The translations under genes were made by a program, and so were the position numbers. Shown here in pieces: positions 5,166 through 33,909 of a stretch of 64,000 bases of DNA (position 1 is its first letter; every line of letters starts with the position of its first letter). The DNA is from Halisarca cf. caerulea. Lineage: Eukaryota > Porifera > Demospongiae > Chondrillida > Halisarcidae. Location: contig CAUJGJ010000005.1 in NCBI GenBank assembly GCA_963170055.1, forward strand, positions 86,201-150,200, in the 5' to 3' direction. The notes beneath the pieces are model-generated. The model saw only the letters and a program-made list of their open reading frames with translations. It ran no database searches and was not told where the DNA came from.

Positions 5166-8100
5166 ATGATACTAGCAATACAACTAGCCTTTGTTTCAGC
5201 TGTTCTTGCAGTTAGCTTTGTGAGTGCTCAAGATGAAACAACTCGTTGCTCAACCACTCTTAGCAACTACTATGTTGAAACGCGTGAGGAGATTTTCAAT
5301 CAGACTGTTGGTCTGATTTTGTCTGCATTTTCTAGCAATGATTCAGCCACTAATGCCTCAGCTACCACTGTGCTTTACAGTCGACTGCTGGAACGTCTAA
5401 ATCTCACAAACACAGCTAATCGTGAAACTGCCTTCAATCAAGCATATGACAAAATACTTGCATCTGCAACAAGAACCTGTAGCCGACTTCAAGGCCAAGA
5501 GGTTCAGCAATCTTCAATTGATCAAGTTCAGAATGAGTTGACAACTCTACTCCAGTCAGAAGATGACATGCTATCTGCAATTCAGTCCACTTATGGCACT
5601 CTTTTGTGTTACCAAGGTCTCACCAGAAGTGATCAGCTAGGCTCCTTTGTTGATAACCTTTCACCAGAAGATCAGGCTAAGATTTTTGGCTTATCAGAGG
5701 GACTGTACACACTTGGATTTGTTGTAGATGATACTGGTAGCATGGCAGATGAAATAGCTAAAGTTAAACAAGTTATTAGATTTTTTGTGGAAAGTGATAC
5801 AGCAGCTCCTACCCATTATATCCTAACATCATTCAATGATCCAGGTACATTGCAACTGATGTGTATAGTGCATAGAGTGAACACTAAATGGTGCAATATA
5901 AGTTGGTACTAGTAAAAGATACCATATAGAGGGTATTTTTCAAGGGGTAAATTTTGTGGATGCTAAAAATTATAGGATTATTCATTGGTAAAATATGTAT
6001 TGTTTTATGCAGCAACACTAACTTCCATGAGTATTTTATTACAATAAAATCTCGCTAATTAGAACCATGATAATTAGAATCTCTGCCTAAATTCACACAT
6101 TGATGAATGTACAGTTCCTAATGTAGGGAGTACATATGTGGCTGGCTAATTAGAACTTATGGATAATTAGAACTTATTTACCTGAAAATTAAGGTTTTAA
6201 TTAAAGAGATTTCTGTATTTCTGGTCCCAATCATGAAAACCATGATTTTTTGCTACTTGAACATGCCCACTATGCATATGGTAGGTATATAGAACATGTG
6301 AGATGTCAACTGACAGGATAGGATAGGATAGGATACATAGGCAGAGGAAGATACTTTTGGCTGGAGGAGGGGGGGGAGCACAACTATATCATGCTATCTA
6401 AACTGAGTACATGTAGCGGAGAAAAGTTGATTACATGATCATTATTGCATCATCTATATAATATGGCGTCCAGAAAAATAGCTGCCAATTCGGTGTTGAT
6501 TACAACCTACATTTATGTCTTTCAATTTTCCTTAAATTGTGGTAGAGAAGCTTTTCAGGACTCAATATAGCTTCATGGGCTTCTAACATGTGCACTTATT
6601 GCTCTAAATAAGTATAAAAGAATTCTTCAAAAGCCCTTGAAAAATATGTATGTTGGGGGGGGGGGGGGGGACAAAACTTGAGGGGGAATGTGCCCCCTGA
6701 GCCTCTATGGTTCCACCGCCTATGGGATAGGAAAGCTATAAGGTACTCATTCTTGGGAAACCTTTAGCTTATAATAGGTACTATTCTAGGCACCCAAGCA
6801 AGTGATGAGAAAATATAGAAATACAAATACAAAATAGAATGGACAAAAAATGAACAGAAAGAAGACAATTATAGAGTTCGGTTATTAATGAAGTAAATAA
6901 TAATGATATTGGTCAGTAGCTATACGCAGGATGCAGAAAAGTATTTTAAGAAAACATATATTTACTGTAGTAGTGAAGTGTCATGCACACTACAGAGTTT
7001 TGAACTGATTTCTTCTGTACCATCTGGTTATCATTTTTGCTGAACCTCACCAAGTTTGAACCCTTTAAATAGCACTATTGAAGTGTATGAGCATAAAAAT
7101 GCGCAAAAATCCCATGTACAGTAAATGATTGAATGTACATATTCCTCAACATGCTGGAATGAAGTGCATGCAGTATGTCACAAAAACTTATATTATTTGC
7201 GGCAAATCATGATGCACAATGGAACCTCTATAATGCAGATGCCGTGGGGACCATGCATGTCCTGTTTACTCGAGGTTCCTGATTTTCCAGGGTTGTCCAA
7301 ATATGTCATTTGGTTGAATTTAAAGGTGTCCAGATTTTGAAGTGTCCTGAATAGCAGGTTTTACTGTACATACATGTGCACACATCTAATAACACTTGCT
7401 TCTGCGCATTAGATGTTGGTGTACCTAAAAGATATGCTGCCACTAACCCGACAGAGAAGAGCCAGCTGCTGTCAGATGTGAATGCTCTTTATGCACATGG
7501 TGGAGGAGACTGCCCTGAGCTAGGCATGACAGGGATCCAGAATGCACTGGGGTTGTCCTCAAGAGGGGGACAGCTCATTGTTCTCACAGATGCTTCTGCA
7601 TTGGATGGTCATCTTACAAATTCTGTGATTTCACAAGCCAGTAACCTAAATGTTATCATTCATTTTATGTATAGTCACTCATCTGGTTGTGGCTCCGGAT
7701 ATCCTTACTATGACCAAGTGAAGAATGCAACAGGTGGATTCAGACTGGATGACCTAAACCGATTTCAAGATATAGCAATGATTCTACAGAACCGAAGCAC
7801 AGCATATAACAGTATAAGCACATCAGTGAATACCACAGAGTCTGGTGGTTCAGAATCAGACATGGCAGACTGCAAAGGGATCCCTGTGTCTACACTCAGT
7901 GAATTGTTGTCAGTTGCCATCAACCCTCAGGGTGGAGCAGCACGTGTGTCTCTCACCATGCCGGATGATACAGTGTCTTTTGATGAAACAACAGCATCTT
8001 TTACCGTAAAGGATTTCTCATCCCCAGAGTCTGGTGTATGGACAGTTTGTGTGATTAGTGGACGAGCTGAGATAAAACAATCACAGGAAGTACGTTTTGA

Positions 8101-33909: not shown

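Follow-up and report, generated by a model that had tools for sequence, protein, structure and literature searches.

A recombination-prone sponge locus that may encode a long form of the MUC4/SUSD2/Mesh chassis with a VWA head and an Ig rod

Does a long exon array in a sponge genome encode one giant surface protein, and would such a protein be a new kind of receptor or a variant of a known adhesion family? This question is raised by a 64,000-nucleotide stretch of DNA (hereafter the window) from Halisarca cf. caerulea (contig CAUJGJ010000005.1 of assembly GCA_963170055.1, positions 86,201 to 150,200 of the forward strand). The original prediction, made from the letters alone, described 44 in-frame exons at 5166-33909 encoding about 4,180 aa, with a signal peptide, an N-terminal VWA, two TIG-AMOP-VWD cores flanking 22 Ig domains and one transmembrane anchor, and suggested an adhesion or self/non-self recognition receptor. 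In this study, the structure, relatives and history of the locus were analysed computationally.

Exons were called using a three-periodic coding model, self-trained with the window as the training set, and splice matrices, followed by manual curation. The predicted exons were reproduced as a single open frame of 44 exons and 4,173 aa at 5166-33909, but the 3′ end was wrong. A close intronless JGI protein, P0001, set this end, thereby yielding a corrected model of 45 exons and 4,153 aa at 5166-36230 (Table 1). Exon 44 stops at 33787 with GTAAGG directly after it, and the last exon of the original prediction runs through this donor at 33788. In this model every one of the 44 introns is GT-AG, 37 exons are of phase 1-1, and the protein contains 108 N-glycosylation sequons and 126 cysteines. 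Hydropathy agreed with the predicted signal peptide and single anchor, with a start resembling a signal peptide and a transmembrane segment near the C-terminus; the latter is a hydropathy call and is common to P0001. A single weak internal peak also lies near residue 1574, at the end of exon 14. A misjoined assembly was rejected as the source of the gene because the gene is itself free of gaps, the window's sole N run (59001-59200) falling beyond it; an N-free wrong join may still be present. The giant gene model is far beyond chance, because its VWD, C8-3 and Ig exons have matches elsewhere in the genome, purifying selection acts on its repeats, and it has a near-identical relative that is apparently expressed.

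Other features were found in and around the gene. Its last intron holds a minus-strand frame of 214 aa (34032-34673) with no Pfam match, and a tandem array of 13 copies of a 34-base unit (35511-35953, 92% matches). A reverse-transcriptase fragment (RVT_1, 60.4 bits) lies upstream on the plus strand at 1557-2078, and a 476-aa sulfotransferase frame (Sulfotransfer_1, 56.8 bits) on the minus strand at 43056-44483. The Rfam search returned no matches. Elsewhere in the genome, COX1 on the 19,152-base mitochondrial contig reads through seven TGA codons.

Table 1. Exons of the corrected gene model and patches of high identity between the cores (window coordinates)
Feature	Coordinates	Strand	Evidence
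Exon 1: signal-like start, helical N-terminal region, first part of VWA_4, metal-site motif DDTGS	5166-5844	+	Pfam VWA_4; P0001 219/226 residues; intron 1 supported
Exon 2: remainder of VWA_4 and region after it	7413-8426	+	Pfam; P0001 327/337
Exons 3-5: three EGF	8712-8810, 9110-9205, 10397-10516	+	Pfam EGF families; P0001
Exons 6-7: two TIG-like domains, core 1	11149-11418, 11504-11776	+	Below Pfam TIG cut-off; beta-sandwich model, pLDDT 74
Exons 8-9: E-set-like segment and AMOP, core 1	12277-12925, 13030-13262	+	AMOP 30.4 bits
Exon 10: VWD, core 1, GDPH at 13655-13666	13644-14207	+	73.0 bits
Exon 11: C8-3, core 1	15340-15597	+	51.4 bits
Exons 12-13: two EGF, core 1	15744-15839, 15927-16043	+	EGF 20.2 bits, slightly below cut-off 21.5; align with exons 41-42
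Exon 14, unclassified; exon 15, Ig	16576-16881, 16964-17209	+	Pfam
Exons 16-35: ten alternating A/B pairs of near-identical Ig domains	17288-27399	+	Pfam and repeat comparison
Exon 36: TIG-like domain, core 2	27825-28097	+	TIG 16.7 bits, cut-off 20.9
Exons 37-38: E-set-like segment and AMOP, core 2	28289-28925, 29221-29468	+	AMOP 15.1 bits, below cut-off; alignment and common cysteines
Exon 39: VWD, core 2, GDPH at 29634-29645	29623-30186	+	77.0 bits
Exons 40-42: C8-3 and two EGF, core 2	31196-31453, 31624-31722, 31815-31931	+	C8-3 48.6 bits; P0001
Exon 43: transmembrane segment and basic stop-transfer	33357-33504	+	Hydropathy; P0001 48/48
Exon 44: cytoplasmic tail	33729-33787	+	P0001 19/19
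Exon 45: terminal exon	36169-36230	+	P0001 19/20 residues and intron 44
Patch 1	11500-11723	+	92% identical to 27821-28044
Patch 2	13624-14213	+	97% identical to 29603-30192; VWD exon dS 0.08
Patch 3	15454-15569	+	94% identical to 31310-31425; P0001 switch inside

The Pfam scan covered exons 1-18 and 36-44 (Ig exons 15-18 among them) with matches to E 1, and recovered most of the predicted domains. VWA_4, which we take to be of the hemicentin/VWA7 type, scored 112.5 bits across exons 1-2, and the N-terminal VWA was thus confirmed; a single-sequence fold of exon 1 (pLDDT 39) was set aside. EGF and Ig were detected, and VWD and C8-3_MUC4 (cut-off 25 bits) exceeded their cut-offs in both cores. 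The AMOP of core 1 passed its cut-off of 25 bits as a borderline case, the 99%-identical stretch of P0001 not being listed at E 0.001. The second AMOP and the TIG domains (13.3 and 16.7 bits) fell below their cut-offs, so the two predicted TIG-AMOP-VWD cores were only partly recovered by this search. An AMOP search of the sponge's own genome gave four matches, none of them in the window. A three-sequence structure model of the TIG-like exons formed a beta sandwich; its best Foldseek matches were CopC-like folds (TM about 0.55), other E-set-like folds were also matched, and no named TIG was returned by this search. The segment between TIG and AMOP is presumably an E-set, as in SUSD2 and Mesh. 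GDPH is present in each of the two VWD domains, and 21 cysteines are invariant across core 1, core 2 and two further proteins, P0002 and P0003. Neither NIDO nor Sushi was found among the matches in exons 1-18 and 36-44, EGF being present instead of Sushi. Ig domains were supported in 21 exons rather than the 22 predicted: exons 15-18 directly by Pfam, and 17 others by DNA identity of 85-97% within type. Exon 14 gave no Ig match in Pfam and no match elsewhere in the genome at E 0.001.

These domains recur in other combinations in known proteins. Hemicentin carries a VWA and a long Ig array, has no AMOP or VWD cores, and is secreted without a transmembrane anchor. The VWA and Ig array are also present in the sponge protein, whereas exon 43 of the latter is transmembrane-like. 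Drosophila Mesh and beetle SSJ2 both have the TIG-AMOP-VWD order and one transmembrane segment (PMC4964579); unlike the sponge protein, they have a NIDO head, Sushi repeats, one core and no VWA or Ig array. Mucin-4 and coral mucin4-like proteins carry AMOP, VWD and EGF (PMC4890752). Mucin-4 shares these domains and the C8-3_MUC4 family with the sponge protein, but mucin-4 and the coral proteins differ in their NIDO head, single core and lack of VWA and Ig array. Human SUSD2 resembles the sponge protein in its AMOP, VWD with GDPH and transmembrane segment, and differs in having Sushi and no VWA, EGF or Ig array. According to the SUSD2 paper, cleavage takes place in the ER between D and P of GDPH, the pieces remain disulphide-linked, and a serine protease is the authors' favoured candidate (PMC6696261). 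The statement that no protein with two such cores was known did not hold in full: two AMOP-VWD-C8-3-Sushi cores are present in P0004, a Bombina bombina SUSD2 prediction of 1,564 aa. This record may be a fused gene model, and it has neither the VWA nor the Ig array of the sponge protein. Among open-access papers on sponge AMOP and VWD, PMC7853314 included, none appears to treat the giant protein.

The relationship between the two cores was examined by aligning their exons. E-set exons were 36% and AMOP exons 43% identical (dS 1.9 and 1.8), with dN well below dS. On this saturated background, three patches with abrupt edges are nearly identical between the cores (Table 1). These patches point to gene conversion, because purifying selection alone would not spare synonymous sites within them. 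When the E-set of core 2 was used as a query on the genome, the E-set of core 1 was returned first (84.1 bits; next best 56.9). As judged from alignment, the cores appear to be an old duplication with later sequence exchange by gene conversion.

The Ig array is similarly homogenised. Its ten A/B pairs have a dN/dS of 0.33 and 0.46, measured among copies within one locus. Synonymous differences were fewer in the middle of the exons than at the edges (0.062 v 0.153 for A; 0.032 v 0.130 for B). The exon middles are therefore homogenised even at synonymous sites, which argues for gene conversion here as well.

A further copy occurs upstream. At 75957-78520 of the same contig, 15 kb upstream of the gene and 10 to 8 kb before the window start, lies a copy of exons 1-2 of about 95% identity, comprising the signal peptide and VWA, with open frames and intact splice sites (533/564 residues shared with the window; dS 0.086). 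P0001 is nearer to the window exons (547/564) than to this copy (531/564). A complete second gene upstream was rejected, since only exons 1-2 are copied and no more model matches precede the window gene. The copy could be an alternative 5′ module, and it implies that the locus duplicated or exchanged pieces more than once.

P0001 provides the main outside evidence on the gene. It comprises 1,579 aa, is intronless on a 5,150-base contig, represents 11 member sequences, and is 93% identical over the region searched (residues 650-1490). The contig most likely derives from spliced RNA, because its counterpart exons in the window occupy about 15 kb of genomic sequence, the inner interval not included. 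P0001 opens with the Met of exon 1 and reproduces 15 of the 44 intron joins (introns 1-10 and 40-44), 13 of them at 11/11 residues and two at 10/11. Identity is 91-100% in exons 1-10 (97% in exon 1) and 95-100% in exons 41-45. Like the window gene, P0001 has VWA_4, three EGF, two TIG-like domains, an E-set-like segment, AMOP, VWD, C8-3, two EGF, a transmembrane segment and a tail; unlike it, P0001 has a single core, no Ig array, a mosaic C8-3 exon, and none of the TIG, E-set and AMOP specific to core 2.

The mosaic was traced with residues that discriminate core 1 from core 2. P0001 resembles core 1 in exon 8 (143 v 1), exon 9 (44 v 0) and the 5′ half of exon 11 (23 v 0), and core 2 in the 3′ half of exon 11/40 (9 v 0) and both EGF (7 v 0 and 18 v 0); the counts were 17 v 2 in the TIG exon and 2 v 3 in the VWD exon. 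The switch lies inside the 116-base patch of exons 11/40. Splicing was ruled out as the origin of the mosaic for a window-like allele, as the switch falls within one exon. These data fit a real allele or relative that has lost about 15.9 kb through recombination between the C8-3 copies. P0001 may also be an assembly chimera across patch 3, where the longest exact runs are 46, 31 and 23 bases. In three protein searches P0001 was the only close relative, and no transcript-like match was found for introns 11-39. Queries with the Ig array and core-2-specific exons returned nothing above 44% identity; this is a weak absence, as the searches reach only proteins of 0.55-1.75 times the query length. 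These searches gave no transcript connecting the Ig array with both cores, an absence named in the original prediction as a refutation, and likewise none of two separate genes.

The exons of the core are widespread in the genome. The VWD exon matches 18 places (two of them, on contig C40, being parts of one stretch) and the C8-3 exon 19. IgGFc_binding matches lie 5 to 16 kb before such places on the same strand, once on C362 and twice on C275, which accounts for 3 of the 50 matches of this family in the genome; NIDO matches precede them on C241, C40 and C58. The same arrangement occurs within single proteins, P0002 carrying the chassis with an IgGFc_binding head and P0003 with a NIDO head. By sequence comparison, the chassis appears to recur often, and its combination with a VWA head, a doubled core and an Ig rod to be one variant among others. 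Clusters of five and three VWD-C8-3 places were observed at C412:7.19-7.28 Mb and C172:1.78-1.83 Mb, with no IgGFc_binding or NIDO match listed alongside. Ig arrays of the same types also occur elsewhere, with no VWD match nearby. At C58:314100-320339, A/B-type Ig exons lie beside three exons that look SRCR-like by eye. The region C58:314-332k was not counted as an Ig array linked to the chassis: a C8-3 exon follows about 11 kb on, but the 20 kb covered contain no VWD or AMOP match.

We consider it probable, with moderate confidence, that one gene encodes a type I membrane adhesion glycoprotein with the MUC4/SUSD2/Mesh chassis and a VWA_4 head, its long form comprising two chassis and a rod of about 21 Ig domains. 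A single gene from exon 1 to the last exons is indicated because P0001 joins window exon 1 to window exons 41-45, and long and short forms of the gene may both occur. It is doubtful that the one-core protein is the working product, with the Ig rod and core 2 as an internal stretch of some haplotypes that is rarely or never made into protein. The completeness of P0001, its 11 member sequences and the lack of matches to the inner exons speak for this, but the length range of the searches weakens that absence, and the inner exons are open, have canonical splice sites and are under purifying selection in the Ig array, E-set and AMOP alike. Two neighbouring genes, one running from the VWA to core 1 and the other from the Ig array to core 2 and the transmembrane segment with its own start, appear improbable. 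They would agree with the transcript search across introns 11-39 and with the Ig arrays found apart from VWD. One candidate start, at 20933, is hydrophobic and in frame with exon 23 of the Ig array, and counts against a single long gene, but it came from a weak scan whose control failed (the real exon 1 fell below the donor threshold). Core 1 would moreover be left anchorless, as no terminal transmembrane exon was found between the cores at the thresholds used, and P0001 links the first exon to the last ones unless it is a chimera.

The functional part of the original prediction fared unevenly. Surface adhesion of the MUC4/SUSD2 kind agrees with the domains, GDPH sites and anchor. A polymorphic self/non-self receptor, with diversity arising from gene conversion and repeat number, is improbable. 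Repeated conversion and duplication at the locus would suit such a role, as would the divergence of exon 6 from P0001, which exceeds that of exons 1-5, 8 and 9 (8/89 v 21/957, p 0.002; the count omits exons 7, 10 and 11, which the patches overlap). However, conversion here homogenises, as in the Ig exon middles, the Ig dN/dS is below 1, and the core-1 E-set and AMOP exons are nearly unchanged in P0001 (212/215 and 77/77 residues). It is rather unlikely, too, that the locus acts as a length switch, in which patches kept alike by conversion would promote C8-3 recombination, thereby producing long and short alleles and a rod polymorphic in presence or length for adhesion or recognition.

Under the favoured reading of a single adhesion gene, the chassis would consist of TIG, E-set-like segment, AMOP, VWD with GDPH, C8-3, two EGF and a transmembrane segment, the VWA_4 head taking the place of NIDO. 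The head would bind a ligand via its metal site. The chain would fold with disulphides and undergo ER cleavage at the GD|PH of each VWD; the disulphide-held pieces, two for the one-core form and three for the long form, would stay on the surface. The Ig rod could act as a spacer that moves the head away from the membrane, perhaps by 70-90 nm given the dimensions of Ig domains. A one-core form like P0001 would be left if recombination between the two C8-3 copies deleted most of core 2 together with the Ig rod and the inner EGFs. We infer all function of the giant protein by analogy, and likewise infer one mRNA for the long form, its cleavage, its adhesion and the deletion origin of the short form.

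The locus is real and unusual. It fits the description of a recombination-prone long/short variant of the MUC4/SUSD2/Mesh chassis more closely than that of a new receptor type. This chassis occurs in a sponge with different heads: VWA in the present gene, and NIDO or IgGFc-binding both in related proteins and next to matching exons of the sponge genome. Its presence places this adhesion and barrier family, including the GDPH site, at an early animal branch. The duplicated core, homogenised Ig rod and one-core relative, the junction of which lies within a repeat patch, make length variation of a sponge receptor testable with existing data.
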